From Candidatus Peregrinibacteria bacterium HGW-Peregrinibacteria-1 (GTDB lineage: Bacteria > Patescibacteriota > Gracilibacteria > UBA1369 > LOWO2-01-FULL-3), in contig PGYE01000001.1 in the NCBI GenBank assembly GCA_002839505.1, positions 934,425 to 998,424 of the forward strand: a DNA stretch of 64,000 nt, in the 5' to 3' direction. The translations under genes were made by a program, and so were the position numbers. The notes beneath the pieces were generated by a model. That model did not search any database, was not told the origin of the DNA, and worked only from the letters and a program-made list of their open reading frames with translations. Shown here in pieces: positions 1,829-63,770 of the stretch (positions are counted from its first letter, which is position 1; the number at the start of each line of letters is the position of its first letter).

Positions 1829-1930
1829 TTAAAGAACAGAGAAAAATATAACGAAAAGCACACAAAAAAGAAACAGCAAAATCAAAAACCACCAAGCCAA
1901 TACACTAAAATTAATACCAATCTTCACCAT
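1829..1930 (-). CDS. possible 33-aa single-TM microprotein upstream of ftsK
   Basis: An ATG at 1930 opens 33 codons ending in TAA at 1829. The product begins MVKIGINFSVLAWW and is almost entirely hydrophobic, so it would be one membrane helix. Its stop is 15 nt before the ftsK ATG, compatible with one transcript. I recognise no family. A T-rich stretch read in this frame would look hydrophobic by chance, so the case rests on position and an uninterrupted frame only. Confidence 0.33.
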   Translation of the reverse strand: MVKIGINFSVLAWWFLILLFLFCVLFVIFFSVL

Positions 1931-1932
1931 AC

Positions 1933-2021
1933 TTATTTTGCGTCATCGCGATTACATTGAACCACTTATCGGCACACTCTTATTTCTCTTGGGCGTATCG
2001 GAGCCTTTGCGGGCCGGTGCC
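1933..2021. repeat. island-flanking repeat, left copy
   Basis: This 89-bp stretch is nearly identical to 13513-13602: TTATTTTGCGTCA, then GCGATTACATTGAACCAC, then GGCACACTCTTATTTCTCTT, then GGAGCCTTTGCGGGCCGGTG, with only a few substitutions. After GGTGCC it continues (TTTCACCGACTAATCAG) like the third copy at 13431-13498. It lies between ftsK and the first island gene and, with the right-hand copies, brackets the accessory genes. Only the left half of the hairpin seen at 13552-13691 is present here. Confidence 0.85.
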
Positions 2022-2129
2022 TTTCACCGACTAATCAGAATAAGATTACCACCCGTAGCCCGCCTTTTCACCGCTCCCCAAAGCGAATTTTTTGGCTAAC
2101 AATGAAAAACCGAGCCTAAGATCACAACA

Positions 2130-2159
2130 TTGACAAAATAGGCTTATATGTGATACAGT
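2130..2159 (+). promoter_or_regulatory. sigma-70-type promoter for the 372-codon ORF
   Basis: TTGACA at 2130-2135 is followed after 18 bp by TACAGT at 2154-2159, preceded by TGTGA. A start site near 2166 would fall after the farthest upstream in-frame start (2150), so translation should begin at ATG 2189 or 2210. Confidence 0.6.
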
Positions 2160-2209
2160 GTTATATTAATTTTGTAATCTTCAAAATAATGACAAAAATC
2201 TTTCAAATA

Positions 2210-3268
2210 ATGAGAAATCCTAGACCAAAAATAGCAGTCGAAACTGAAGACCGCAGAGCAGAAGGTGATGCGCTTACAAATGATGCCAAACACTTTGCAG
2301 GCACACTAATTAACAAAGGCCTAACCGTTCAGGACTTAGGAAGTGAAAAAGCTCCCCTTAGAAGAGAAGGTGATAATCGCGATGCAATGGTATCTGCCGT
2401 CAGAAAAGAATACGCAAAAGCGGCAAATTTTACAGTTGCGGAAGAATCTACAGGTGATAATCCTTTAGAAAAGCTAAATGATGTAGAAAAAGCCTGCCTT
2501 GAAGAAATGAAAAGTAATTTTTTTCGGGATGGGATTGCGCTCATTGATGAAAATTTAAATCAAAAATCGTATGAAGCTGCACTAAAAAAAGACCCATCAG
2601 CTGGACAATCATGGGAAATTATTCAGAAAAGATTATTAGACAATGAAGCTACTCTCCTGAAAAAAGCTGTCGAATTATCAAAACTCACAGGCAATCAAGA
2701 AGGTGAAGGAGTCATTTTAGTTGGAGTATATGAAAATGGCGACCTTGCAATCAGACAAAGAAGTTCAGAAATTGTAAATGCAAGGTGGACGAAAAACTGG
2801 AAAGACGGGGTGAGAGAGGAATCTGAAAAAGGTGAACTGGTGCTTCTATTCCACCCTATTGCTTATTTCGGCTCTATGGGTGGCAGCCCTATTAAATACA
2901 GGGGGCGATGGGCAAAACCTATTGAAATTATTATAGCCGTAGAGAATGCTGGTTATCATGTGCCAGCAGATGTAGAAGACAGGAATCCTTACCATCAGCC
3001 AGTACTGGGTGAGAAAAAAGGTTTGGTAGCTGCTTATGAAGCTATAACTTACGAACCCTACGTCAAGAACGACAGATTAGCATTACTTCAATGCCCTTAC
3101 TATGTACGTTATGAGTACGCTGGCGATGATTTTGATTTTGAGAGGGATGATTACTCCGACGCCGAAGTGTATGTTGTTGAGGGGAGGAATCATAAAACCT
3201 TCATCGACAGTACAACTGCTGACTCGGAAGATCCCTGTTGTGGCGCGATACTATGGCTGAGAGGCTAA
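2210..3268 (+). CDS. uncharacterised island protein (about 352 aa)
   Basis: The frame is open from 2150, but the promoter at 2130-2159 makes ATG 2189 or 2210 more likely; 2210 (MRNPRPKIAVETEDRRAEGD) is chosen because the hydrophilic, protein-like sequence begins there. The product looks cytoplasmic, with no signal peptide or membrane helix. The middle (LTGNQEGEGVILVGVYENGD) has only a faint resemblance to DUF4256-type proteins, not enough to assign. The C-terminal part is rich in aromatic and acidic residues. The gene is monocistronic, closed by a hairpin terminator, and is the first gene inside the flanking repeats. Function unknown. Confidence 0.75.
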   Translation: MRNPRPKIAVETEDRRAEGDALTNDAKHFAGTLINKGLTVQDLGSEKAPLRREGDNRDAMVSAVRKEYAKAANFTVAEESTGDNPLEKLNDVEKACLEEMKSNFFRDGIALIDENLNQKSYEAALKKDPSAGQSWEIIQKRLLDNEATLLKKAVELSKLTGNQEGEGVILVGVYENGDLAIRQRSSEIVNARWTKNWKDGVREESEKGELVLLFHPIAYFGSMGGSPIKYRGRWAKPIEIIIAVENAGYHVPADVEDRNPYHQPVLGEKKGLVAAYEAITYEPYVKNDRLALLQCPYYVRYEYAGDDFDFERDDYSDAEVYVVEGRNHKTFIDSTTADSEDPCCGAILWLRG

Positions 3269-3301
3269 GATTTAATTTTGAGCTTTAGTTCTATCTTATT
3301 T

Positions 3302-3328
3302 AGACCCCATTATGGCGGGGTCTTTTTT
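3302..3328 (+). terminator. rho-independent terminator after the 372-codon ORF
   Basis: A 7-bp stem AGACCCC/GGGGTCT (3302-3308 with 3317-3323) with an 8-nt loop is followed by five more T residues. It lies 34 nt after the stop and separates this gene from the next operon. Confidence 0.8.
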
Positions 3329-3392
3329 CATTTGAAAAATGTATCAAGCTTGAATATCAATCTCTTAAAAACGATCTGCCCCCTATTCAAAA

Positions 3393-3421
3393 TTGATCAA
3401 TTCCAAGTAATATGCTACAAT
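3393..3421 (+). promoter_or_regulatory. promoter of the island plus-strand operon
   Basis: TTGATC at 3393-3398, a 17-bp spacer and TACAAT at 3416-3421, with an upstream TG giving an extended -10 (TGCTACAAT). It lies 22 bp before the ATG at 3444. The -35 is embedded in the palindrome TTGATCAA (3393-3400). Confidence 0.65.
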
Positions 3422-3443
3422 TAGGGGATATCTAAAAATCAAA

Positions 3444-6400
3444 ATGACTATCCTATCTCCAGAAGATAACGATGCTCAGGTCCAACCAGACCAAGAAGCA
3501 AAAGTTAATGAATCAACATCACCAAAGATTGAAGGTATTTCTGATGTCATTCGAGGAAAGCTAGGCAGCGTGCTTAATGGTACAAGCCAAAATGCTGAAA
3601 GTAAGGAAGGCAGTACCCTTAATCAAAGAATTACTTCGCTCGTACAATACTTTCGCCGCTGGAGTTACTCTCAAGGTAAAGTAATCATGCCCGACATTAT
3701 TGATATAATTTCTAATATCATAAATCACAAAGCCGTTATTGATTCATTTGGTCAATATGAAGATTACGACAGGTGCCAAAATTTACTAGAAGCAGAGGCC
3801 GTACAGTTTGAATCAACTCTAAAAAAGAATGATAACACAATACGCAAACATCTCACCAGCTGGGGAGTCACACCAAAGTTGAACGGTATATTTTTAGATG
3901 CTCGCTGGCTTGATAGTGCACTCCACAAAGCTATTACAAAGTTCAATAAACCTCAGAGCGAAAGAGACCCCAGAAAGCCAGAAGATTTTAGAAAAGCCCA
4001 GTTTAAAGCCCTTGAAGAAACCTTGTCAAATGACTTTGAAGGTGATTTAACCCAGATTGCTACAGGGATCAGCGACAAAAGCTTCACACTCGAAGCAATT
4101 AGCTCTCAACTTCTAGCACACCAATCAACTCCCGCAACAACCTTTATCCTCGATAATATTCCAACAAAAGGATTTCGTAAAATACCTAAAAGAGAAGAGT
4201 TTGAAGGTGAAACATATCATATTGAAAAAGAGACAAAACTTAAAAGGAACACGGGACTTACAGTCGTCGGCCCAAATGATGATCCACGACAACTACCAAA
4301 AGGAGTTTTATTAGATAGCAACTTTGGGTACAACAAAGATGGCTCAAAAAGAATCCCCGCACACATCATGATTATTGACGACCATGAAGGCTTTGGCCAA
4401 CTTGTACACGACACCGCCACCATCCAACTGCTAAACATCATTAAGAAAACAGGCTTGGATAGCTCTTACCAAAATGAAAACGGAGAATATCAAGCCCTTG
4501 TCAAGAAGCTTGATGCCGACACGATTCTTTCATCTTGGATCATAAAAAACCTCAATCACCCACTTTTGCAAAGCTCAGAATTTCGAGAAATATTGAGAAA
4601 AATAAGCATATGTGAAGATTTTAAATTAGGCTCAACAATTTTGGCATACGGCGTAAAATCAAGAGATTATGTCTATATTATTCACGGAGTCCTAGACCAG
4701 TCTATTGAACTTGTTAAAACCAATAAAAGAGAAAAATTAAAAAAAGAAATTGAAGAGGAAGAACAAAAAGTTGCCCAGGCTGGACACAGCAACAGTGAAA
4801 AATTAGAAAAATTAAAAGAATATCTATCTTGGACAAATACCACCCCTCTTGAAAAGGAGGATTTTGAACTAGTATTGAACATTATGCATCAAGCACTTCC
4901 TTCAATAATCACAACTCCATTCGCATTTGATCATATTCTTCAGACTGCTTATCAGTCTGAGAGAGAGACCTATGATCAAATCTCGAAAGGATATGAGGCA
5001 GGAGAGTTTGAAATAGCTGGCTCAATGTATGACAAGGATTTACTAGTAATTTCAAGTGCAAGCGGCACCCCTCTCCCTGAGTTTAAAAACAGACAAGGTT
5101 TATACATATTTTTGAGAGGACAAGAACATCTTAATCGCGAACTTGTTCTTACAAAAGATGGCAACTCATATGATCTGGCCACTAATGCAGAAAACATGAA
5201 AAGTCTGCTCAAATATGACTTTGCCTCATTAGCCAACATGATTAAAACTGCTGAACAGGTGCACGTTTCACACCTAATTATGAAAAAACAAAGCGAAATC
5301 ACTGCATCTAGTGACCCCGAAAAAACAAAACTTCTAGAATATGAACTGGAACAGCTACAAAGACATTTTCAACTCAACAAGGAGGGTGAAGTTTGGAGAA
5401 GCAGAACTCAAAACATGGCCTGTGCATTCAGCTATTTGCCCGAACATGACATCATGAGAATCATCGTTGATTGGAAAAAACAATCAACAAAACAAAAAAA
5501 GAAAGGAGATTCCAAGACAAGCTCAAAATCTTCCATGCCAGCCCTTGGTGATTTGCCTGCAATTGAAGACAGAAAACTAAAAGTTACGAAAGATGATTTT
5601 AATGCACTATTCGACAACTACTCCTACACCCCTGAAAACTTAGTGAAGCTGTTTGAAGAAGATTTCGGCACCGACTTTGACAGCGATGTACAAACTGCAC
5701 AATTTGACACATTACGAGATCACGTTCTTCAAGTTTTACATCAATATGAGGTCTTCTTTTCTTACAACAATTTACCAGCACGAATTACTCCCAAGTTCAT
5801 GAGGCTTACCCTACTACTCCATGACATTGGTAAACCAACAGCTGTTAAGCAAGGTGAAAAGCATTTACAGCACGAGAAAACACTACCAATTTTGGAATCC
5901 ACCTTTGAAGCACTTGGCTTTTCCAAAGAAGAAATTGCTCTAGCCAGCGCATTAGTTGAAGAAGACCCTATCGGCAAATATATGTTAGATAAAAGCTCAT
6001 TAGACGAATGCCTTGAAACAATAAGAAAACAAGCCGGGAAAACATCGTTAGAACTAAAAGATTTTTATGATCTATTAATGATGTTTTACATGTGTGATTC
6101 TTCATCATACACAGCAAAACCAAAGCCCGGCAAACCATCCCCACTAGACAAGCTATATCTTCTAGATGATGCCAATAGAGTAATCAGCTTTGCGCCAGCT
6201 AAAGAACAAAAAGTCGATGATTTAAGTGCGGCAATCGAAACATACAGTCGACTAGATCAAATTTCCTCAGTAGACAGCTTGGAAGAGTACATCAATGCTA
6301 ACAGAGAACAAGTTGAACAGCATGCTCAGAAAATCACGAAAGGCAGTTTCAATCAACAAATGCAGCAAATGAAAAGTTTATTTGCCAAAAACCAACAACA

Positions 6401-8246
6401 AGCCAATGCAATAGCCTGGTATGTATATAATCACATGCATGACTCAATGGAAGATCCCAATAGAGAACCATCACTAGCAAACATTGAAAAGTATCTTGCA
6501 GACGACGCATTGATGAAAAAAGCTGTTGAAACAGTGACCAACATCTGTGCAGAAGAAAACATGGATTTGCAATTCAATCTAATGTCTCTTTTCTTCAACA
6601 GCAACCCTGCATTATATGTTGCAACGATGAAGAGAATGACTTTTGAGATTTCCCCAGCACTATCTAATGAGAACACCACGACAAAAATTGATAAGCTACT
6701 AATAAATTATCCCGGAAGCTCCCTTTATGTAGCACATCAACTGGCAGATCGCCTAGAAAAAGAACTAATTCCAAAGATGCTCGATACCCATGCCACCGAT
6801 TTATCAGGATTATTAAAGATGATTGCTTCGGGGGGAATTAAAAACGCTAAAGAGATTGGATATCGCTATGTAGAACGAAAAGGTGATGATTTCAAATTAG
6901 CCGGATCTCTAGCAGTTTTCACCTATCTGGGAGCATTTTTTGATGACGCAGATATTTTCATCAACATTGATTCCGACTTCTTAGAGGAACAGTATGAGAA
7001 AAATCCAGATTCGATGTGTTATTACAGCGAAGATTTTGTTGTCAAACCACGAAGAACTGCTAATTACAGAACTGCAGCACAAAGAGCAAGTTTTCGAGAA
7101 AAATTTGCTGATGTAATGAAAAGACCAGATGCAAAACACTATCTTGCATACAAGATAGCTCACAGCATCTTACAAGAAGTCATCGCTCATGGAATTGACA
7201 TTCAGAATTTAAGCTCGGCCCAATTAGAAAACTGGTTTATTCGCTATCTAGAAAACAATAGTTCCGGAACTCTTGCTCCTGTTTCAAGACTGGGAGGTAG
7301 ACCCGAAGGAAGGTTAAACCTTAGTGTCCCCCTTGATAAGTTAAAAATAAGAATTCCAAATTATTCAATTGATCAATTTATTTTGGGACTAAAAAAACAA
7401 AAACAAGAAGCAGAAAAAACACAGAACACTGATATTTTAAAACGAATAAAATACCTGACCAGCATATTGATCGGCGTTGTTGGATTCGAACCAGGACTTA
7501 CCCTAGAAGATCTAGAAGCCCGCATTACTCCAGAAATGAAGAAAACAACACTCAAAGACATAATCAAGGAAGCAGTAGAACGCTCCATAGCCTCATCTGA
7601 GGCAGAAAAAGCTGCAACAATGCAGGCATTTTTGAAAGACTTTGACACAAGAGTACAAGTTTATGATGCGGAAATGCGCAAAGCTCCAGTAAAACTATAC
7701 TACAAATCCGTACTACAGCAGTCGGTTGACAGTGATGTAAGAAGCTTCTCAAACTTAAGATTCTTAGTGGTGCCAAAAAAGAATGAATGCGAAATTATCG
7801 ATCCATTACAGACTGAAAGCGAAAGGCAAATGTTTGCGTATTACTTGCAGCAAGAACACGGCATCAAACCTGAAAACTTAGAACTCAAACAAGACCGCAT
7901 AATCATTAAAAATTGGGATGAATCCTTAGATCTTGTTAAAATCAAGATGAGCTTCATTCAAATGGACAAAGCAGGTATGCAAATTCTTAGAAATAAGGCG
8001 ACAACCTTTTTTGAAGAGTTAAAGTTAAGCAACCTCGAAATAGCCCCTGAGTTCGAATCGTTAAAAACGATAATTGATGACACCATACTACGCAAACTGA
8101 CTGATAAGATATCGTTAATTCGGGATGCAATGCAATCAGGCAATGAAAGTAAATTAAATGGTGTAAAAATAGGCTTTTTGCAAAAAAAACTTGGATTAAA
8201 TGAAGAACAAACTAATATGGTACTAAGCTTAATGACAAAACAATGA
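3444..8246 (+). CDS. 1600-aa HD-domain protein of unknown function
   Basis: A very large soluble protein, unusual in what looks like a reduced genome. The only domain I can place is a central HD phosphohydrolase-like region. Candidate metal ligands are H760/H766 (DHVLQVLHQY), H793-D794 (LLLHDIGKP) and H807/H810 (KHLQHE). An N-terminal region carries IIDDHEG at about 310-316 and LDADT at about 356-360; these recall acidic metal-binding phosphoesterase motifs but are unassigned. Residues 425-460 and 690-715 are highly charged and probably coiled or linker. HD domains typically cleave phosphoester bonds in nucleotides, dNTPs or cyclic nucleotides. The stop overlaps the next start by 4 nt (ATGA), so it is co-translated with the 161-aa protein and the ADP-ribosylglycohydrolase. 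Substrate unknown. Confidence 0.82.
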   Translation: MTILSPEDNDAQVQPDQEAKVNESTSPKIEGISDVIRGKLGSVLNGTSQNAESKEGSTLNQRITSLVQYFRRWSYSQGKVIMPDIIDIISNIINHKAVIDSFGQYEDYDRCQNLLEAEAVQFESTLKKNDNTIRKHLTSWGVTPKLNGIFLDARWLDSALHKAITKFNKPQSERDPRKPEDFRKAQFKALEETLSNDFEGDLTQIATGISDKSFTLEAISSQLLAHQSTPATTFILDNIPTKGFRKIPKREEFEGETYHIEKETKLKRNTGLTVVGPNDDPRQLPKGVLLDSNFGYNKDGSKRIPAHIMIIDDHEGFGQLVHDTATIQLLNIIKKTGLDSSYQNENGEYQALVKKLDADTILSSWIIKNLNHPLLQSSEFREILRKISICEDFKLGSTILAYGVKSRDYVYIIHGVLDQSIELVKTNKREKLKKEIEEEEQKVAQAGHSNSEKLEKLKEYLSWTNTTPLEKEDFELVLNIMHQALPSIITTPFAFDHILQTAYQSERETYDQISKGYEAGEFEIAGSMYDKDLLVISSASGTPLPEFKNRQGLYIFLRGQEHLNRELVLTKDGNSYDLATNAENMKSLLKYDFASLANMIKTAEQVHVSHLIMKKQSEITASSDPEKTKLLEYELEQLQRHFQLNKEGEVWRSRTQNMACAFSYLPEHDIMRIIVDWKKQSTKQKKKGDSKTSSKSSMPALGDLPAIEDRKLKVTKDDFNALFDNYSYTPENLVKLFEEDFGTDFDSDVQTAQFDTLRDHVLQVLHQYEVFFSYNNLPARITPKFMRLTLLLHDIGKPTAVKQGEKHLQHEKTLPILESTFEALGFSKEEIALASALVEEDPIGKYMLDKSSLDECLETIRKQAGKTSLELKDFYDLLMMFYMCDSSSYTAKPKPGKPSPLDKLYLLDDANRVISFAPAKEQKVDDLSAAIETYSRLDQISSVDSLEEYINANREQVEQHAQKITKGSFNQQMQQMKSLFAKNQQQANAIAWYVYNHMHDSMEDPNREPSLANIEKYLADDALMKKAVETVTNICAEENMDLQFNLMSLFFNSNPALYVATMKRMTFEISPALSNENTTTKIDKLLINYPGSSLYVAHQLADRLEKELIPKMLDTHATDLSGLLKMIASGGIKNAKEIGYRYVERKGDDFKLAGSLAVFTYLGAFFDDADIFINIDSDFLEEQYEKNPDSMCYYSEDFVVKPRRTANYRTAAQRASFREKFADVMKRPDAKHYLAYKIAHSILQEVIAHGIDIQNLSSAQLENWFIRYLENNSSGTLAPVSRLGGRPEGRLNLSVPLDKLKIRIPNYSIDQFILGLKKQKQEAEKTQNTDILKRIKYLTSILIGVVGFEPGLTLEDLEARITPEMKKTTLKDIIKEAVERSIASSEAEKAATMQAFLKDFDTRVQVYDAEMRKAPVKLYYKSVLQQSVDSDVRSFSNLRFLVVPKKNECEIIDPLQTESERQMFAYYLQQEHGIKPENLELKQDRIIIKNWDESLDLVKIKMSFIQMDKAGMQILRNKATTFFEELKLSNLEIAPEFESLKTIIDDTILRKLTDKISLIRDAMQSGNESKLNGVKIGFLQKKLGLNEEQTNMVLSLMTKQ

Positions 8247-8728
8247 AACAATATACTGACTTGAAGAAACAAGTACAAGAAATCATAGACGCAAATAATG
8301 AACTCAAAGACGATAAACTTAGTTTGATAATAAGAATGCTTGAAAGTACTGCGAAACGAATTGAAAAACTTAGCCAAGAAAAAATTATCAACACCCCCGA
8401 AAATAAGTTTTACCTTCACGCCTACACATTTTATGGAACCGCTGCCATGATCAGACTCAAATTACTGAACAAAACTTCTATAGATACCTACGAAATTCCA
8501 AGCTTCAACTCTTGGGAAGACATAGATAACATTTTTTATGGCTTTGCCGACAAATTGACCGTTATAGTTTACTCAAATCAATATGAACTGCCTGAAGAAT
8601 CAACAGGTAGTTACATGCTAACTGAAAATGGTCTCAAAATTATTTTTGCAAACAGCCCAGAAGAATTAGCCTCTCTTAAAAAAGATGATACTGTAGTTCT
8701 CCATGTTACTAATTCAAATTTATGGTAA
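8243..8728 (+). CDS. uncharacterised 161-aa protein, middle gene of the island operon
   Basis: The start overlaps the previous stop by 4 nt and the end overlaps the next start by 7 nt, so all three proteins should be made in a fixed ratio. The N-terminal 50 residues are a charged helix (LKKQVQEIIDANNELKDDK). The rest looks like a small alpha/beta domain with no motif I recognise. There is no signal peptide or membrane helix. It may be a partner or inhibitor of its neighbours; this is inferred from coupling only. Confidence 0.75.
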   Translation: MKQYTDLKKQVQEIIDANNELKDDKLSLIIRMLESTAKRIEKLSQEKIINTPENKFYLHAYTFYGTAAMIRLKLLNKTSIDTYEIPSFNSWEDIDNIFYGFADKLTVIVYSNQYELPEESTGSYMLTENGLKIIFANSPEELASLKKDDTVVLHVTNSNLW

Positions 8729-10413
8729 ACACTTTATCTGACTGGGAGGCAACAGATGACAACAAAAAAAACCAACCACCTTCCAAAGAAACAACACCTG
8801 ATGAAGTAGATGTCGAAGAAATAAGAAAAGTCATCAGAATATATTTGAGAGAAATTGAATTGCCTCAAGAGCAGAGAAATCTCTCGAAAGTTGTCGGCCA
8901 AAAGGATCTATTACAAAGATCTTCCACACTAGATATTTTGACTGATGAAGACATAGAAAGTCTCAAACAGAACAAAAGCTCTTTAGCTAGGAAAGTTCTA
9001 ATTGATGCAGCAATACGCAGCGAAGACCAAGATAAAAAAACCAAAATTTTAGAATGGATTCTATTATCCAAAGAATCAGGTCATGTGAATTTACAGCTGG
9101 TTCTAAACTATTTATCAATCAACTACATCAACGAAGAAATCGACGCTCATTTACTAAAAAAGGCGAAACTTTACCTTAAGAAGCAAAAGATTCAATCATG
9201 GGGAATTGGATTGATTGTCGCTAGATCTGGAAGATTTCCAGAACTTACAGATCTTCTAAAAAGTCAGTTGAAAGACCCTCTAATTCCAGATGAAATTAAA
9301 GAATTAATAATCAATAATGCCTCTCAATTATTTCCTCAAGATTGGAAAATATTACTCCAAGAAGACATAAATCTGGGGATGTCCCCAAGATTAAGGTCGA
9401 TAAGCGAAACAGCTTTAACAACTAAACCTTCACCATACCCTGCCCTTAGCGATGTTTCAGAAACTTTCGTAGTATACGAAGATAAATTCCGTGCAGCTTT
9501 AATGGGACATGCTATTGGTGACGCCTATGGAAATTCTTTGGAAATTCTAAAAAGACATGAAATGCGAGAAGATATTCTTGGTGAAGCGAACCCATATCCT
9601 CAAACAATATATTCCTACGAAGATCAAGGAACCACCACCGATGATACAGTCCTTGCGCTATTACTGCTACAAAACTTCATCAGAAACCAAGGATTTAGAC
9701 CAGAAAACTATGCTACACTCTTAGGAAAATACCAGAATAAAGTTGATTTAGGACAAGCTCCTGATAGACATTTTTCAGCAAATACTGCAGCAGTACTAAG
9801 AAGAATACACCTGGGCTATAGCTTAGACCGATCAGGTCGTGCATCGCTCGGTAATGGATCGATTCTTCGCTGCTTACCGATATCCATGATCACCATGAAC
9901 ACTGAGGAAGAAAAAAAAGCTGAAATAATAAGAGACACCGTGAGATTCTCACACAATAGTGAAAAAGCCATTAACGCTGCTAACCTAGTTGTTAAAATTC
10001 AACAACACCTCTTCAACACAAAACAACTAGATGCTGATGAATTGTTGAATTTAATAAAAGCGGAAAATACTGATGAAGAAATGACCACAAAAATTGACCT
10101 GGTTAGACAACTAATACATGACAATGAAACTGAGCATGAAGTTGTTCAAAACGCTCTCGGCACTTCTAGTAAAGTGCATGAAAGTTTACCGTTTGCCATA
10201 TATTGTTTCTTTCGATCAAAAGACTTTAATGAATTAATGAAATTATGCTGCTATGTAGATGGCGACTCTGATAGCATCGCCGCACTAGCTGGATCATTTT
10301 GGGGCGCACTCCATGGAATGAAAGGAATCCCAGTTTCATACATTGCACAATTAGATTGTCGCGAACACATTGAAAAAGCCATAGAACTTAAAGACGGAGA
10401 GTACTGGTACTAA
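8722..10413 (+). CDS. ADP-ribosylglycohydrolase-family protein with helical N-terminal extension
   Basis: Residues from about 254 to the end form an ADP-ribosylglycohydrolase (DraG/ARH) domain: KFRAALMGHAIGDAYGN (255-271), TTTDDT (304-309), GNGSILRCLP, and DGDSDSIAALAGSFWGALHG starting at D513. The metal-binding aspartates of the family (D307/D308; D515, D517) are all present, so it is probably active. Such enzymes remove ADP-ribose from proteins or nucleic acids or cleave related ADP-ribosyl compounds. The first 250 residues are mostly helical and HEAT-like and have no counterpart in compact DraG proteins; they may bind the target. It is the last gene of the coupled operon. No ADP-ribosyltransferase is obvious nearby. 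Confidence 0.9.
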   Translation: MVNTLSDWEATDDNKKNQPPSKETTPDEVDVEEIRKVIRIYLREIELPQEQRNLSKVVGQKDLLQRSSTLDILTDEDIESLKQNKSSLARKVLIDAAIRSEDQDKKTKILEWILLSKESGHVNLQLVLNYLSINYINEEIDAHLLKKAKLYLKKQKIQSWGIGLIVARSGRFPELTDLLKSQLKDPLIPDEIKELIINNASQLFPQDWKILLQEDINLGMSPRLRSISETALTTKPSPYPALSDVSETFVVYEDKFRAALMGHAIGDAYGNSLEILKRHEMREDILGEANPYPQTIYSYEDQGTTTDDTVLALLLLQNFIRNQGFRPENYATLLGKYQNKVDLGQAPDRHFSANTAAVLRRIHLGYSLDRSGRASLGNGSILRCLPISMITMNTEEEKKAEIIRDTVRFSHNSEKAINAANLVVKIQQHLFNTKQLDADELLNLIKAENTDEEMTTKIDLVRQLIHDNETEHEVVQNALGTSSKVHESLPFAIYCFFRSKDFNELMKLCCYVDGDSDSIAALAGSFWGALHGMKGIPVSYIAQLDCREHIEKAIELKDGEYWY

Positions 10414-10421
10414 AAAGGACG

Positions 10422-11714
10422 TCACTCTTGGTCCGCTCTGTTTTGAAGTTTTTCCCATATACTTCTATTCCGCATTTCATAGTAAGCATTGTAGATATTG
10501 ATATCCCTAATTACCGAAGGATCGGCAATATGTTCAGCTGTCACTAAAGGATGTTCAATGTCAGTAGAAATATTTCCGTCCTGCAAAAGATGAATAATTG
10601 ATTTATCTTTAACGGCTTCAGAGAGACCTGCAATGACACTTCTGTCTTCAACAGTAAAATCATCACTCTCATTTGCAAATTTCAAACCGTTGGCGCCGCC
10701 CTTTAATACAAAGCGATATTCTTTGCCACTTGGCAAAAGCAGACTATAAATAATCTCGACATCAGGCACAGCGCCTTTACTTGCTACATCAGAACCCATT
10801 GCCCATTTAAGAAAATCACTATCAATTCTGCCAGTAAGCTCAATAGTAGCCCCTGCAACTTTTCCTTCTTCTATAGCCCTCTGATATTTTAAGGCCTGAT
10901 TTCTTGATGATACAGACTCACCTCTGCCATGTTCACCACCATATCGTTTTCTAGTAGCAGATTTTGTTTCATACACATAAGGCTTACCACCTCTCGAAAT
11001 TCCACCGACATCAATTTGAATATCACCTTTTTCATCACCTCCTAAATGCTTATAGGGCGGCTTATCAAAAGTCCCTCCAGCATCTGCTTTTTTATCATAC
11101 CCTAGATATTCAACCACAATGGGATCGTCAAACTCTTCTATTTCCTCCAAACCTTGTCTCTCTAAAATTTCTCTCCTCGAAAGCTCAAATAAAGCTCCTC
11201 GAAAGCTAGTCAGAACAGCTACTGGATCCTTATCCCTCTTACTAAAAGCACTTTTCAACAAATTCAAATAAGACAATCGTTCCCTTTGAGGTAATCTACG
11301 CCAATAGGCTTTAAATGCCTCAGCTTCATCAGTAGGTATTTCACTGGCTTGATCCAACTTGCCAAATAATTCTTCAGCATTTTTGGCCAAATTGGCTTCT
11401 TCTGCTTTAACTATATCTGCGCTTACAAATTCCGCAAAATGTCTCAAAAACTTTGCTTTCATTTCAGCAAAAGACTTTTTTAATCGAAGCAAAGCATCCT
11501 TCTCTTGAGGCAAAACGCCTTCCCGCAATTTTGCGGAAATTCTGCTCTCCAATCCTTGATAGCGAATATGAGTTTCATCAAACAATGTACGGTTTTTTTG
11601 ATCCAAAGAGGCCAAAAGTGCATCTGATTCGTCTAAAATCTGGATGTCTTGTCTTGCCTCAGCCCCCAACAAGTTTTCGTATTCTTCCGCAAACTGGTTA
11701 AGAACAGTAGTCAT
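10422..11714 (-). CDS. PD-(D/E)XK nuclease-like island protein (430 aa)
   Basis: The N-terminal 170 residues are helical and charged. Then comes a pattern matching the PD-(D/E)XK core: E177 in a helix (GALFELSRREIL), D231/D235 (GDIQID), E249-T-K251 at the end of a strand (KPYVYETKS) and Q273 in the next helix (RNQALKYQRAI). These are the positions used by restriction-like nucleases to bind metal and cut nucleic acid. The C-terminal 150 residues are mixed strand and helix with no assignment. It is the last gene of the minus-strand operon, 12 nt after the 53-aa ORF, and converges on the ADP-ribosylglycohydrolase gene with an 8-bp gap. Nuclease activity is inferred from motif spacing, not from a family match. 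Confidence 0.75.
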   Translation of the reverse strand: MTTVLNQFAEEYENLLGAEARQDIQILDESDALLASLDQKNRTLFDETHIRYQGLESRISAKLREGVLPQEKDALLRLKKSFAEMKAKFLRHFAEFVSADIVKAEEANLAKNAEELFGKLDQASEIPTDEAEAFKAYWRRLPQRERLSYLNLLKSAFSKRDKDPVAVLTSFRGALFELSRREILERQGLEEIEEFDDPIVVEYLGYDKKADAGGTFDKPPYKHLGGDEKGDIQIDVGGISRGGKPYVYETKSATRKRYGGEHGRGESVSSRNQALKYQRAIEEGKVAGATIELTGRIDSDFLKWAMGSDVASKGAVPDVEIIYSLLLPSGKEYRFVLKGGANGLKFANESDDFTVEDRSVIAGLSEAVKDKSIIHLLQDGNISTDIEHPLVTAEHIADPSVIRDINIYNAYYEMRNRSIWEKLQNRADQE

Positions 11715-11726
11715 AGCAAGAAAAGT

Positions 11727-11888
11727 TTATTTATTAAGTTTTGATCTTATCCGCTGCATTTGCTCACGCTCCTCAATCTGGTCCAACTGCTCTTCAATAC
11801 GGTCCAGTTGGGCATTTTCATTTATTAGAGCACCTTGGACTTGTTTTGCAGCTAAGAGTCGATGATTCAAATTGGTACTGATATTCAC
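11727..11888 (-). CDS. 53-aa coiled-coil microprotein between two island genes
   Basis: A GTG at 11888 opens 53 codons ending TAA at 11727. It starts 2 nt after the stop of the upstream 466-aa gene and ends 12 nt before the next start, so it fills a gap that would otherwise be odd in a tight operon. The product begins VNISTNLNHRLLAAKQVQGA and then shows heptad-like acidic/leucine spacing (LDRIEEQLDQIEEREQ), predicting one amphipathic helix or coiled coil. No family recognised. A small regulator, antitoxin-like inhibitor or assembly factor are possibilities. Confidence 0.62.
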   Translation of the reverse strand: MNISTNLNHRLLAAKQVQGALINENAQLDRIEEQLDQIEEREQMQRIRSKLNK

Positions 11889-11890
11889 AA

Positions 11891-13291
11891 TTATGAAAGT
11901 TTAGATTTTAATTCCGTTAAACTCTCACCTCCGACAGGGGTAGTAAGTTGACCAAGCTGTTCTTGTGAAACTATACCTATACCTTGACCATCAGCTCCAG
12001 TATATAAGGTAACATGAAATGGAACATCCTTAAAAGTTCCCTCTGGCAATCCTAACAAGGTCTCAAGTTGTCTGTAAAAAGCTTCTGCACCCTCAACATC
12101 ACACATCTGAATAACACTTCTAGCCTCTCCTTTTTCGGCACGCCTAAATTCATCTTTCAAAATCACCTTAAAATTAATACCCTCAGCAGCTTTAGCCAAT
12201 GCAGCTTTAGCGGCCTCATAAGATTGCTTATTACTTGGTCCTTTCAAACGAATGCTAGCAATTGTTGCATCATCCAACACCATACCTTCTGAAATCAAGG
12301 CAATAACAGCCTCCCTGCCAGCATCATTAGCCTTTACGAGCTTTTCCAGCTTAGTTTGCGCAGAAATCAACGAGACATGCATTTCAGGTTTTCGCACATA
12401 ATTTATTCCACCAAAATCTAAATTCTCATTTGGTAAATCAACCTCCACTCCGAGCAATCCTCCCGCTCCTTTATCAATAAAGTAACGCCCTTCAAGAGGG
12501 GTTTCAAGTAACTCTTTAATCGCAGCTCTCGTAGTGTCGCTAGCCTGCTGAAGTTTGTCTTTATCATCTGATACTGGATCAGATTCAACGCTAATAAAAA
12601 TATCAGAACCAAGTTTCGCCTTAATTTCAGCAATAGTAAGCCTATCACCATAGCGCCAACCTGTTTCTTTCGGCACCATCATACGCCCATCAGAATCTTT
12701 TGAAGGAGTCCTATTATCCGCCTCCCTTTGAATTGGAATCTGGGGAGCAGGAAAACCGGCATGCATTGCCCAGATTGTTTGGCCATCTACGCCATTTCTC
12801 ACTGCTGGCCCCACAATAACAGTAGCATAATCAACATCCTGCAATGCTTTTGCAGGAGCCTCTGATTCAGTAATAACTATCGATGGTGTCCCCTTGGGAG
12901 ATGGTTTTAAAGTTACGATTTGTTCGTCAGAAAGATCATTAACGGAAACAATTCTACTTTTACCTTTAATGCCTGGAACCAAATAATACTTTGCAAATGG
13001 CAACATTGCAGATGCTGGAGCACCCTTTTCAAGAAAAACCTCCCGATCAGCCGCATCAGATTTTCCAAGCTTATCAGCAATAAGCTCTAAAGCCTCTATT
13101 GGACCCGCACAACTCTCGCTGTAAATAACGGACCCCATTGTCTTCGCTTCACCATCATCCTCCGAACGGAAATGCTGGCTGGCCATACCATCCACATAAG
13201 CTTGCTCCTGTGGAGTTTGAATTAGTTCTTTAATTGATGGATTTGCTTCTATAATATCCTGCGAATCACGCAGCTTTGGAACTAAAGTCAT
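11891..13291 (-). CDS. 2H-phosphoesterase-like two-domain protein (466 aa)
   Basis: The C-terminal part carries two H-x-[ST] motifs, H305-V-S307 (KPEMHVSLIS) and H426-V-T428 (VPFHVTLYTG), 121 residues apart. This is the signature of the 2H phosphoesterase (LigT-like) superfamily, which opens 2',3'-cyclic phosphates or acts on ADP-ribose cyclic phosphates and 2'-5' oligonucleotides. A separate N-terminal domain contains ATVIVGPAVRNGVDGQTIWA (from about residue 156), of a type I cannot name. It is first in a minus-strand operon with the 53-aa and nuclease-like genes, driven by a strong promoter. No signal peptide is seen, so it is cytoplasmic. Substrate unknown. Confidence 0.75.
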   Translation of the reverse strand: MTLVPKLRDSQDIIEANPSIKELIQTPQEQAYVDGMASQHFRSEDDGEAKTMGSVIYSESCAGPIEALELIADKLGKSDAADREVFLEKGAPASAMLPFAKYYLVPGIKGKSRIVSVNDLSDEQIVTLKPSPKGTPSIVITESEAPAKALQDVDYATVIVGPAVRNGVDGQTIWAMHAGFPAPQIPIQREADNRTPSKDSDGRMMVPKETGWRYGDRLTIAEIKAKLGSDIFISVESDPVSDDKDKLQQASDTTRAAIKELLETPLEGRYFIDKGAGGLLGVEVDLPNENLDFGGINYVRKPEMHVSLISAQTKLEKLVKANDAGREAVIALISEGMVLDDATIASIRLKGPSNKQSYEAAKAALAKAAEGINFKVILKDEFRRAEKGEARSVIQMCDVEGAEAFYRQLETLLGLPEGTFKDVPFHVTLYTGADGQGIGIVSQEQLGQLTTPVGGESLTELKSKLS

Positions 13292-13328
13292 GGCTATATA
13301 GTTAATAAATATTGATTACTTCAATAAA

Positions 13329-13357
13329 ATTATAGCATAAAACGCAAGTTGCGTCAA
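13329..13357 (-). promoter_or_regulatory. promoter with internal palindrome, island minus-strand operon
   Basis: On the minus strand TTGACG (13357-13352) and TATAAT (13334-13329) are 17 bp apart, with a TG extended -10. The palindrome ACGCAAGTTGCGT (13342-13354) lies across the spacer and the edge of the -35, a classic place for a repressor operator. The start codon at 13291 gives a leader of roughly 30 nt. Confidence 0.7.
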
Positions 13358-13430
13358 AACAACAAAAATACTACAATAAACAATACTACAGTTGAATTTG
13401 CAACTATATCCCTTTTCTACCGGGGTGCAA

Positions 13431-13498
13431 TCTTATTCCGTTTGGGCGTATCGAAGCCTTTGCGGGCCGGTGCCTTTCACAGACTTAATTCAGGATAA
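13431..13498. repeat. island-flanking repeat, partial right copy
   Basis: CTTATT, TTGGGCGTATCG and AAGCCTTTGCGGGCCGGTGC are followed by TTTCACAGACTTAATTCAGG. It matches the left copy (about 1980-2045), including the part after GGTGCC that the full right copy lacks. The upstream half of the repeat is absent. The 507-bp stretch 13292-13798 holds only this copy, the next one and the two promoters; I see no gene in it. Confidence 0.75.
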
Positions 13499-13512
13499 TC
13501 TTCGTCGATTAA

Positions 13513-13602
13513 TTATTTTGCGTCATTGCGATTACATTGAACCACCTATAAGGCACACTCTTATTTCTCTTGGGCATATCGGAGCCTTTGCGGGCCGGTG
13601 CC
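13513..13602. repeat. island-flanking repeat, full right copy
   Basis: A near-identical 90-bp counterpart of 1933-2021 in the same orientation, about 11.6 kb away. Its 3' two-thirds forms the left half of the hairpin element at 13552-13691. Confidence 0.85.
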
Positions 13603-13691
13603 GAACGAAGTGAGGCGAGCAAAGGCGAGATCTGAGACGTAATTTCCCGCTGGGGAAATTAACGGCGTCCCAAGAGAAATAAGAGTGTGCC
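13552..13691. other. 140-bp element with 23-bp perfect inverted ends (structured RNA or MITE-like)
   Basis: The first 23 bp (13552-13574, beginning GGCACACTCTTATTTC) are the exact reverse complement of 13669-13691. Inside are two further perfect stems: CCTTTGC 13585-13591 with GCAAAGG 13619-13625, and TAATTTCCC 13640-13648 with GGGAAATTA 13653-13661 closing a GCTG loop. The RNA would fold as a three-way junction with a long closing helix. ATAA flanks the element on both sides, as a short target duplication could. Because homology with the left repeat extends outside the inverted ends, a simple transposable MITE is not certain. No ORF. Confidence 0.7.
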
Positions 13692-13723
13692 ATAATTAAC
13701 CTAATCGCTGACAGCAAAATCAA

Positions 13724-60436: not shown

Positions 60437-61594
60437 TCAATCTGAATAGTATCGACCACTCCAAAGATTAAGCTTTATATAAACCAAATCTCTCAGAGTC
60501 CTTAAAGAATCTTTTATCGGCCGCACACGGCTTTCAGAAGAATTAAACCAGCTAACAGGAACCTCTACTATTTTATAATCCATATTGTGGGCAATAACTA
60601 GAGCCTCCATGTCAAAAGCAAAGCGTTTCACCTTTTGCAAAGAAAATATTTCCTTTGCAGCTCGATGTTCAAATAGTTTAAATCCACATTGAGTATCCTT
60701 AATACCATCAATTAAAAACAACCGGATTAAAAAATTTCCGACTCTACCTATAATTATTCTGTATGTAGGCTGCTTGATTTGTATATTACTACCATGAAGA
60801 TAGCGAGAACCTATAGCTATTTTTGCCGAAGTTTCCTTCATTTTTTCAAGTAATTTTCCAAATTCCTCAATTGGCGTTGAATTATCCGCGTCCGCAAAGA
60901 GAATTAGCTTTCCATTGCTTGCCTCGACTCCTCTCTTGACCGCAAAGCCTTTTCCAGAGTTTTTATTCAAATTTATAAGTTTTAAATTTGATATTTTTTT
61001 CTTAAAATTTTCAATAACTTCCGCCGTCTTATCTGTACTCCCATCGTTTACAACAATAATCTCGGCATTAATAACTTGCTCTTCCAGAAAATCACGAATT
61101 ATAAGAAGAGTACTTTTTATCCGATTGGCTTCATTGAAAGCGGGTATGATAATTGACAACTCAAAAGGGAATTGATCGAGAACCGTGATTGATTTTTCAG
61201 TCAATCTAAAAGTCCATATTTTATTTGCCAAAAAATTCCATGTCAGCACAATTAATGAGGTGATAGCCTTCGCAAACATATACCAAATACCAGCAAGATT
61301 AACCATCACATGCATACTGGTGATAGTCAGCCCAAGTCCGATAATCGAAACTATTAAAAATTTTATAAACAATTTCCGGTAATTTCGCGATTTGCTCTTG
61401 AAAGTCCAAATTTTATTGAAAATGAAATTGTTAGTCACAGCCAACAGAAATGAAAGAATCGTTGCCGGAATCACCGGGATCAAGAGGTATTCAACAAACA
61501 CATATAGGGAGGCAAGGTCAATAAATGTTCCGCTTGCCCCAACAATGCAATACTTCAAAAATGGACTGAAATTTTTAAACAATTTATCAATCAT
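60437..61594 (-). CDS. fusion of GtrA-like membrane domain and family 2 glycosyltransferase
   Basis: ATG 61594 (MIDKLFKNFSPFLKYCIVGA) is preferred to the start at 61621. Residues about 10-135 are a four-helix GtrA-like domain (flippase-like). The rest is a GT2 catalytic domain of the dolichyl-phosphate-glucosyltransferase kind: LSIIIPAFNEANRIKSTLLI, FADADNSTPIEEFGKLLEKM (DxD) and DTQCGFKLFEHRAA. The fusion would make and flip a polyprenyl-phosphate sugar. It overlaps the upstream gene by 8 nt. Confidence 0.88.
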   Translation of the reverse strand: MIDKLFKNFSPFLKYCIVGASGTFIDLASLYVFVEYLLIPVIPATILSFLLAVTNNFIFNKIWTFKSKSRNYRKLFIKFLIVSIIGLGLTITSMHVMVNLAGIWYMFAKAITSLIVLTWNFLANKIWTFRLTEKSITVLDQFPFELSIIIPAFNEANRIKSTLLIIRDFLEEQVINAEIIVVNDGSTDKTAEVIENFKKKISNLKLINLNKNSGKGFAVKRGVEASNGKLILFADADNSTPIEEFGKLLEKMKETSAKIAIGSRYLHGSNIQIKQPTYRIIIGRVGNFLIRLFLIDGIKDTQCGFKLFEHRAAKEIFSLQKVKRFAFDMEALVIAHNMDYKIVEVPVSWFNSSESRVRPIKDSLRTLRDLVYIKLNLWSGRYYSD

Positions 61595-63770
61595 ACGAAA
61601 CCTTATAAATATAGATATCATTTACATTAAAAACCTTCTCAAAATTCTCAGGATTTTCCTGAGCCCACTCCAATTCATAGCTTCGAACTCCCGGCGTACT
61701 AATAGGATTAACGACTAAATATTCTTTTTCATGTTCTGCTAAATTTTGTAACCAATTCTGGTAAGCAGGATCTCTTCTTATTGAATTTTCTGAATCCCTA
61801 TAATCGAAGTAGCGACAATCCGTACACTCATTGATGTTCACATAGTCAACCTCTCTCGAAAAATTCCGTCCATATAGGTAATAATGAAAATTAAATCCGC
61901 TATAAGCAATCTTGCTTTGCGGTGCATTTTGATTCAGCCACTCAGATGCATGAATAATGTCCATCAATGTTTGATCCTCGCCAAAATACTTTGATGCCGC
62001 ATATTCTCGTGACACCTCTCTTTCTTTGTATCCAAAATCAAAAAATCTATATGTACCGACAAAGGACGCTACAATAAGAAGAGCTGTAATCGTGTGTCTC
62101 AAGGTTATATCTTTGCTTTTCAAACAACCCACTTGGCAGGCATACAAAAATGCCAATAATGCAATAATAAAAGAGGCTAAAATACCTTTATGTTTTACCA
62201 AGACGGAATAATCGATCAGAATTCTATCTGTATAAGATATGCTCGCTGGCGGGTCAAAAATTAAAAACAAAAAAGAAAGAACAAAAGTAATTACTGTAAA
62301 AAGATAAAAGGTTTTTTTAAAAAACTTCAATTTGTTTACCACATAGCCGGTCACAATGGTTCCTAAAATTAAAAATGGCATTGCATATCGTATGTTTGGA
62401 AAGAAATCTCTAAATGTGTAAGGGGCCTTTAAATATAAATAAAAGTAAATCAACAAGGTGGCTCCAAGTACTGCTGGGACGGCGAGAGACGACCTACTGA
62501 CAGGAATTCCCCTGATAATTTTCTTATAAAAACCTGTAATTATCAGTTCTAAAAAAATCACTAGAGGTAAGACAATCGAGATTAACCCATATGGACCTGT
62601 GATATAGAAAAATTTCACTATTTTATCTTTTATCGCGGAAAAGGAGTCAAGATTATGAATCAGAGAAGTATTCACAAGCATTTCATTAACACCAGCCCCC
62701 TTGTATCCTTCTAATATGTTCATTCCGAACAAAGTTATGTCGACAGGAAAAAGCGGATTGCCGGAATCAATCCAGTTCCGTATGTAGAAAAAACTACCTG
62801 TCAGCAAAACACCTGTAATGGCAATAGAGCCAGCTTTCAACAATTTAATCTCTTTGCGTTTGAACCTGTACAAACTGACTAAAATCAATAGAACTACCAC
62901 CAAAGCACCATAAACAAGCCCTAAATATTTTGTTCCGATAAATAACCCCATACTTAAACCGAAAAATAAAAAGTCTGAATATTTTTCTTCTTTGCTGTTG
63001 TAAATCTCTTGTAGGAAAAAGATCGACATTGCGAAAGTTAGCGCAAAAAACAAGTCCACCAATGGAAGCCCAGCCTGATGCAAAAATATTGGCATGTAAA
63101 AAGGAATTGCCGTGGCAATAATTGCCGTATTTTGATCAATGCCCAAATTTCTCAAAATACGCCAAATAACTATTCCCAAAACAACAAAAAGAGGAAAATT
63201 CAAAAGATTAGCAAAAAAATCATTTCCAAAAGGCAAAAAAGTCCATAAATCTAACAACTCATAGTTACTCGGATAGTATGAAATTGGTCCCGCAAAAGCA
63301 CTGTAATACAACTCATTTAAACTACCAGACTGTAGCCACTCGGCAATAAATGGCAGATGATATGCCACGCTGTCGTACTCTAATGGAATTTGTAAAGCAG
63401 CATTAAAAAATTTTGCAAACAGTAAAAAAAGAATTGGTCCAAATATAAGAGAAATCAAAAGGAAACTTGGCCTATCCTTAAGTACCAATTCAATCTTTAA
63501 ATTTCGCACTACCCCTTTACCTAGCAACATAACCAAAACTACAAATAGTGAATAAGTAGCGATTGCAATATTGGTGTATGTTAGCACCTCAAAGACACCC
63601 AATAGTATTTGAATAAGAATTATCTGACTACAGAACAGTATAAATAATGATATCAGCAATTTTGAAAGCGATTGAACCCTATAGTTATTGATCCAAAAAA
63701 AGATTAATAAAGAGCTGCCCAAAGCAGCAATATTTAACCCCGTAAAATTTAAAAAACTCCCAAGCTCCAT
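61587..63770 (-). CDS. polytopic membrane protein, GT39-like glycosyltransferase
   Basis: About 12 membrane helices over 727 aa, with an extracytoplasmic domain at the C-terminus (about 590-727: ASEWLNQNAPQSKIAYSGFN). An acidic pair in an early loop (PLEYDSVAYHLPFIAEWLQS) resembles the catalytic DE region of C-family (GT39/ArnT-like) transferases using lipid-linked sugars. Paired with the GtrA-GT2 gene it fits surface glycosylation: one makes and flips the donor, the other uses it outside. The start ATG lies in the 27-bp repeat. Confidence 0.78.
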   Translation of the reverse strand: MELGSFLNFTGLNIAALGSSLLIFFWINNYRVQSLSKLLISLFILFCSQIILIQILLGVFEVLTYTNIAIATYSLFVVLVMLLGKGVVRNLKIELVLKDRPSFLLISLIFGPILFLLFAKFFNAALQIPLEYDSVAYHLPFIAEWLQSGSLNELYYSAFAGPISYYPSNYELLDLWTFLPFGNDFFANLLNFPLFVVLGIVIWRILRNLGIDQNTAIIATAIPFYMPIFLHQAGLPLVDLFFALTFAMSIFFLQEIYNSKEEKYSDFLFFGLSMGLFIGTKYLGLVYGALVVVLLILVSLYRFKRKEIKLLKAGSIAITGVLLTGSFFYIRNWIDSGNPLFPVDITLFGMNILEGYKGAGVNEMLVNTSLIHNLDSFSAIKDKIVKFFYITGPYGLISIVLPLVIFLELIITGFYKKIIRGIPVSRSSLAVPAVLGATLLIYFYLYLKAPYTFRDFFPNIRYAMPFLILGTIVTGYVVNKLKFFKKTFYLFTVITFVLSFLFLIFDPPASISYTDRILIDYSVLVKHKGILASFIIALLAFLYACQVGCLKSKDITLRHTITALLIVASFVGTYRFFDFGYKEREVSREYAASKYFGEDQTLMDIIHASEWLNQNAPQSKIAYSGFNFHYYLYGRNFSREVDYVNINECTDCRYFDYRDSENSIRRDPAYQNWLQNLAEHEKEYLVVNPISTPGVRSYELEWAQENPENFEKVFNVNDIYIYKVSYD

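Follow-up and report, generated by a model that had tools for sequence, protein, structure and literature searches.

The stretch analysed here, referred to below as the window, is the final 64 kb (64,000 nucleotides) of the 998,424-bp, single-contig genome of Candidatus Peregrinibacteria bacterium HGW-Peregrinibacteria-1. Between a gene for an FtsK protein on the left (PF01580, 6.7e-63) and one for a glutamyl-tRNA synthetase-type protein on the right (PF00749, 1.2e-104), it contains an island of seven genes that together span positions 2150-13291. Genes A, B, C and D are encoded on the plus strand, and E, F and G on the minus strand. An earlier reading of the sequence alone, hereafter the original prediction, had proposed these seven open reading frames (ORFs) as a putative defence unit between ftsK and gltX; each ORF was found at the position given, and the Pfam matches of both flanks agree with that location. 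We searched for relatives of the island genes in 147 other genomes, one of which, G019, belongs to the same family as the window genome.

Gene G (11891-13291, minus strand) encodes a protein of 466 residues, in which a conserved N-terminal domain (residues 1-236) is followed by a 2H-type domain with the motifs HVSL at residue 305 and HVTL at residue 426. The N-terminal domain shows 55-60% identity among genomes G019 and G084 and the database protein P0005, and the effector part of the relatives varies, being one of two 2H types or missing altogether. The database protein P0004 is 49% identical to G over 450 residues; it carries the pair of H-x-(S/T) motifs seen in G as HMTL and HVTL, and P0006 carries HVTL twice. 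Gene F (11727-11888, minus strand) is a coiled-coil-like microgene of 53 residues with a GTG start, placed directly upstream of gene E (10422-11714, minus strand; 430 residues), a predicted PD-(D/E)XK nuclease. Residues E177, D235, E249-x-K251 and Q273-xxx-Y277 of E are invariant, in this order, in all four homologues (4/4), and we take this set to be the motifs of RecB-like PD-(D/E)XK nucleases. E had no relevant sequence match in Pfam or the Protein Data Bank (PDB).

The order of this trio recurs in other genomes. In G084 a G homologue (58% identical over the N-terminal domain) is followed by a 53-residue ORF, an E homologue (42%) and an HD-type protein, with gaps of 23-25 nt, and in G008 a 55-residue ORF is followed by an E homologue (48%) and an HD-type protein. 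The microgenes of the window, G084 and G008 are all charged, nearly equal in size and in the same place, and they are too short to prove homology. The two HD-type proteins match PF01966 with 16.5 bits (G084) and 14.5 bits (G008), below the cut-off of 22. Both E homologues carry approximately 440 further residues, which are 46.6% identical to each other. A SELAQGRNIY..GSGHYRP region is conserved at the end of the tail in these long proteins (locus L010, 2328-4952; locus L018, 10840-13485). No Pfam match of the G084 protein passed a cut-off, and neither has a clear PDB match.

Gene B (3444-8246, plus strand) encodes the largest product, of 1600 residues. Its N-terminal part appears DHH-like, with the motifs DDHEGF at residue 312 and LDADTILS at residue 356, a region that the original prediction had overlooked. 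An HD motif (HDIGK) lies at residue 793, although the match to PF01966 (14.1 bits) does not reach the cut-off of 22. The last 700 residues or so belong to no recognised family, and had no relative among the best approximately 7990 candidates from the protein database or in the 147 genomes. The sole convincing relative of B in those genomes is a protein of 801 residues in G019, here B', which is 33% identical and covers residues 38-692 of B. B' has DHH and LDSDSILS motifs and matches DUF6687 with 33.2 bits (cut-off 27), whereas B of the window has DDH and no DUF6687 match. A separate scan of genomes for DUF6687 matched none of the control genomes and so carries no weight. The structure model of the N-terminal part of B was unusable.

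B' stands in an operon in which it is followed, after 63 nt, by a relative of the G N-terminal domain (G', 55% identical) and, after another 25 nt, by an HD protein. The HD half of B is missing from B', and the separate HD protein encoded two genes on matches PF01966 with 25.2 bits, above the cut-off of 22. A single-sequence hhalign comparison of B with this HD protein (P 0.0024 over 68 columns, probability 12%) is only suggestive.

Gene C (8243-8728, plus strand; 161 residues) overlaps B by 4 nt and gene D (8722-10413, plus strand; 563 residues) by 7 nt, which bears out the predicted coupling of B, C and D. D consists of an N-terminal part of approximately 250 residues, HEAT-like in its relatives, and an ADP-ribosylglycohydrolase (ARH) domain. 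This domain matched PF03747 with 4.7e-52 (177.9 bits, cut-off 26.2) and carries both acidic motifs, TTDDT at residue 305 and GDSDS at residue 514, presumably the metal motifs of ADP-ribosylglycohydrolases. D is thus the one of the four predicted folds that Pfam recognised; the HD fold of B, the 2H fold of G and the PD-(D/E)XK fold of E missed the Pfam cut-offs and are identified by motif, with partial backing from relatives.

The ARH domain of D was matched in 3 of the 147 genomes (G100, G008 and G080), and the first two of these places were read. In G100 a protein with a 2H-SAK match (2.5e-16), a 662-residue protein with a PNP_UDP_1 match (5.4e-8), a 127-residue ORF and a HEAT-ARH protein form an operon. 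On contig C67 of G008, a 1644-residue protein with the same nucleoside phosphorylase (PNP)-type C-terminal end as in G100 directly precedes a HEAT-ARH protein; this large protein (locus L056, 1966-6900) also has a hydrophobic middle. B showed no similarity to the PNP proteins of these sister loci. Homology of C to the 127-residue ORF of G100 was considered and rejected, as alignment gave no support and the two share only their place between a large protein and the ARH protein. What B-C-D appears to have in common with the sister loci is therefore a likeness of plan (a large protein, a small one and an ARH with an N-terminal part), not proven descent.

Gene A (2150-3268, plus strand; 372 residues as the longest frame) had been described as DUF-like. 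By sequence comparison it is a member of a family of variable proteins that are targets of diversity-generating retroelements (DGRs), which the original prediction had missed. A is 40-49% identical to proteins in loci L032 (own genome), L033 and L034 (G048), with which it shares a GA(I/V)LWLRG end. Over 114 positions, the template repeat (TR) and variable region (VR) of the G048 relative show 23 differences, every one at one of the 37 TR adenines and none at the other 77 positions. Because every difference lies at a template adenine, we regard this as the signature of a DGR. The bAvd-type ORF beside the G048 target is 63% identical to a G019 ORF that matches the bAvd family. It lies with the TR and a 97-residue piece of a reverse transcriptase (RT) beside the target (L034, 1170-1943), and this DGR looks decayed. 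In A the VR-equivalent end lies at about 3161-3268 and is followed by a GC hairpin with a T run (3302-3323, plus strand), which is terminator-like or could be a DGR hairpin, since DGRs keep a hairpin behind the VR.

Relatives of A were found in 5 of the 147 genomes, and the own genome holds two further matching ORFs at G000:C1:77,442-79,250. Of these two DGR-target-type ORFs (L032, 7443-8333 and 8409-9251), the second matches DUF4256 (1.3e-24) and is similar to ORFs that lie close to RTs in G084 and G025. Another candidate picked by eye (L032, 14119-15213) had no supporting match and was left uncounted. The own genome showed no match to Pfam RVT_1 (PF00078) or to the RT of G019, and no DNA copy of the end of A other than A itself, although a diverged template could escape this comparison. 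As neither an RT nor a second copy was found, A is predicted to be a frozen, orphan DGR target. We compared B to G by blastp with the ORFs of six A-type neighbourhoods (five in other genomes and one in the own genome, three of them listed gene by gene) and obtained no match.

DGR-type genes accompany relatives of some island genes in G019. On the contig that encodes B', G' and the HD protein there are also a bAvd gene, a TR-like stretch and an RT, the last of which is separated from the HD gene by 14 nt; in the window the orphan A precedes B. At the edge of the G019 contig (L005, 1-1816) there is also an apparent VR end. Queries with RT, bAvd and target sequences gave no ORF match in G084:C95, G008:C57, G025:C22, G008:C67 and G100:C5, several of which are short contigs. 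An association of these loci with DGRs, seen in two of seven, may thus be taken as a lead.

The island is compositionally alien. GC content at third codon positions (GC3) is 0.29-0.33 in its genes (0.38 in F), compared with means of 0.50 for 20 plus-strand and 0.44 for 13 minus-strand genes hand-picked downstream of the island. GC skew per kb is -0.09 to +0.08 at 2-10 kb and -0.13 to -0.23 at 10-13 kb, whereas the 2 kb on the left have values of -0.40 and -0.51, and those on the right lie mostly between -0.2 and -0.5. Low GC3 and the lack of the strong surrounding strand skew would fit a recent acquisition. A second patch of low GC3 and weak skew lies at 60437-63770 of the window, beside a tRNA-Pro gene, and encodes a GtrA-glycosyltransferase and a PMT-type mannosyltransferase.

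The promoters and repeats that had been described around the island are present, with reservations in both cases. A promoter-like site before A (2130-2159, plus strand; 10/12 matches, one of four such) overlaps the GTG start of the longest A frame, and since the site ends at 2159 a start at ATG 2192 or 2210 is more likely. The site before G-F-E (13357-13329, minus strand; 11/12 matches) is the best of all. The total of 33 sites is, however, no higher than in shuffled sequence (30.9 +/- 5.0). A dispersed intergenic repeat flanks the island as a partial left copy (1917-2032, plus strand) and as right copies (13427-13720, plus strand) that contain a 26-nt inverted repeat (13549-13574 and 13669-13694). 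The copies are real, three having been found in the 64 kb where none was expected. They are not specific to the island, since a 308-nt stretch elsewhere in the own genome (G000:C1:83,728-84,035) is 80% identical to 13427-13720, and a reading of them as particular to the island was accordingly dropped. Because the bracketing element is dispersed, it gives no proof of a single insertion. Two more core copies lie in the own genome at L032 13756 and 13896.

Strong matches among the 147 genomes were limited to one genome for B, two for G, three for E and three for D. B and G each had a single weak hit in addition. The match of B in G073 (8.5e-4) was rejected, as it lies in an ORF that we take to be DnaA-like, and the match of the G N-terminal domain in G112 (1.3e-5, or 1e-6 by a second comparison) dropped to an E-value of 0.033 with a profile. 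A 228-residue ORF of G100 that looked by eye like the G N-terminal domain had an E-value of 0.47 and was not used as evidence. With a four-row profile of gene E, 379 genomes of the phylum yielded the own genome, G025 and two weak hits (G204 and G388, about 1e-4, short pieces only); G008 and G084 did not appear and were presumably outside this draw. A pattern scan for G in contigs of species genomes found two loci, both from Peregrinibacteria, and the protein database contained five G proteins including that of the window. E and G found no further relatives in plasmids, and neither did B or its N-terminal part among the best approximately 7990 protein database candidates for each. PDB sequences compared with the alignments of B, E and G gave only rows that we took as chance (best E-value 0.049). 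Within the limits of these samples, the families seem to be restricted to this lineage.

Conflict systems typically present themselves as patchy, foreign, fast-changing and modular sets of enzymes that process nucleic acids and nucleotides. At these loci parts are swapped: the 2H domain is of two kinds or absent, HD is fused or separate, and the nuclease comes with or without its 440-residue tail. Conserved gene order, part swapping, alien composition and patchy presence therefore lead us to favour, at just short of an even chance, an acquired cassette whose core (G, F, E and B) works as one modular defence system that would degrade nucleic acid and nucleotides of the invader or of the invaded cell. 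For the island as such, we put a candidate anti-invader role at about one half. The single unit of the original prediction survives in part. G-F-E with or without HD, and B'-G'-HD, are kept as neighbours, and ARH stands with 2H and nucleoside phosphorylase genes in G100; relatives of A occur without B to G, C had no relative in the 147 genomes, and a lone E is found in G025. Most probably A arrived separately, as an orphan DGR target whose role was at best once that of a variable sensor.

In such a system E would be the cutting enzyme, and F, which lies directly upstream of E in the three loci that bear it, could hold E in check or couple it to partners. What was observed of F and E as a candidate toxin-antitoxin pair is their gene order. 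The conserved N-terminal domain of G may serve as a hub onto which 2H phosphoesterases are grafted. It would fall to the 2H, HD and DHH parts to hydrolyse products or signals of phosphodiester type, and D, by removing ADP-ribose, would reset or counter ADP-ribosylation.

Several observations weigh against this modular defence system. The gene-neighbourhood check suggested by the original prediction returned B', G' and HD together in G019, but no other locus was found that holds both B-C-D and G-F-E, and the full gene set differs from locus to locus. The E homologue of G025 is a solitary gene close to the end of its contig, and the 150 nt before it hold no F-like ORF; C was matched in none of the 147 genomes (0/147). 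It is by motif that the window proteins were labelled HD, 2H and nuclease, the Pfam cut-off is likewise missed by the HD proteins of G084 and G008, and structure models were poor (mean predicted local distance difference test scores of 55 and 41). No ADP-ribosylating partner of D was recognised, and none was searched for. Queries with B, G and E found no relatives in viral contigs. PADLOC models, run on the seven window proteins and eight relatives, found no known system in the window, the only matches being of Cas3-type HD models to B (E-value 0.018-0.022).

An alternative is that the site between the two housekeeping genes is an insertion hot spot that has collected three unrelated pieces (A, B-C-D and G-F-E) with separate jobs and no common function. 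Relatives of A recur without the other island genes, the B-C-D and G-F-E trios point at each other and were found together only in the window, and in G008 the E-type and ARH-type loci lie on separate contigs. Yet in G019 the genes for B' and G' stand side by side in one operon, and 2H and ARH share one operon in G100. We consider a mere hot spot rather unlikely. The enzymes could instead serve nucleotide or RNA economy, salvaging nucleotides or repairing cleaved RNA ends in a host-dependent cell, where 2H would open 2',3'-cyclic phosphates and the phosphorylase and HD/DHH parts would recycle. This draws on the PNP-type proteins of the sister loci and on the cleaning of RNA ends by 2H domains, as described in passages of PMC9503650. 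Housekeeping genes would not, however, be expected to show such patchy presence, foreign composition and swapping of domains, and the ORF lists, read by eye and not searched for these enzymes, revealed no RNA ligase or kinase; we regard such a role as very unlikely.

Marginally less probable still is that the large modular proteins are secreted effectors delivered into a host or a rival bacterium, with D or F protecting the producer. The modular nucleic-acid-cutting parts are reminiscent of toxin repertoires. There is a hydrophobic stretch in the 1644-residue protein of G008 (2.23 on a 19-residue hydropathy scale at residue 581), and D resembles Tri1 (E-value 1.2e-20), but with 73.6 bits against a cut-off of 490. 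Against delivery, A to G have no strongly hydrophobic segment (maximum 1.48 by simple hydropathy), and no secretion gene was noticed beside the island, where none was searched for.

The ways in which near-minimal and probably host-dependent bacteria resist their viruses are, to our knowledge, poorly understood. A cassette that recurs between genomes, encodes unrecognised nucleases and phosphoesterases, is unmatched in the PADLOC library and in one genome is located beside a DGR RT would be a concrete candidate for such a defence. Its experimental handles are the orphan domain of G (residues 1-236, 55-60% identical in three sequences) and the microgene of 53-55 residues that is kept in place. 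More speculatively, and in our view unlikely, the loci could represent an undescribed immune family of Peregrinibacteria. Here the G N-terminal domain would act as hub beside a microprotein-controlled nuclease and interchangeable 2H, HD, DHH, nucleoside phosphorylase and ADP-ribosylglycohydrolase enzymes, fed by retroelement-diversified sensors like A, in a cut-down adaptive defence of nearly minimal cells.

The original prediction knew of no described system with this set of genes, in line with PADLOC, which gave no match beyond the Cas3-type HD. In the portions covered of the literature on defence in Peregrinibacteria and Patescibacteria and on DGRs, 2H, DUF6687 and ARH, we found no description of this gene set, although one may exist elsewhere. 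Among the eight relatives, the HD protein of G019 matched Cas3 models (best 1.3e-9), and the HEAT-ARH protein of G100 weakly matched the candidate model PDC-M57A, with an E-value of 0.0064. B thus shares an HD motif with Cas3-type HD nucleases, to which the separate HD protein of G019 is nearer; unlike these, B has no helicase match, and its own match reaches only 0.018. The 2H-SAK family (PF22547) was matched by the G084 (1.3e-12) and G100 proteins, whereas the 2H domain of the window is of another branch, nearer P0006, and matched no Pfam 2H model. With DraG, ARH3 and Tri1, D shares PF03747 and both acidic motifs, and its PDB relatives are MJ1187, ARH3 and DraG; it differs in its extra N-terminal part of about 250 residues, in having no recognised partner transferase and in falling far under the NCBIfam cut-offs.

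A broader parallel is offered by NTP-dependent ternary and STAND conflict systems, whose DGR-diversified targets are, in the relevant passages of PMC7159879 and PMC10907252, located in conflict systems of other bacteria and proposed to be sensors. They have in common with our loci varied nucleotide-processing effectors (including nucleoside phosphorylase and phosphodiesterase), module swapping and DGR targets in the locus. None of the seven proteins, however, showed a domain of the MoxR, vWA or STAND kind or any further NTPase in the Pfam scan, and the DGR target is an orphan. Patescibacteria have their own DGR clade, according to parts of PMC8144416. A differs from these DGRs in that its own genome yielded no RT or TR and that it is predicted to be frozen; its family nevertheless resembles their targets, in that the variable region is C-terminal and Pfam domains are absent, and its G048 relative adjoins a TR, a bAvd-type ORF and an RT piece.

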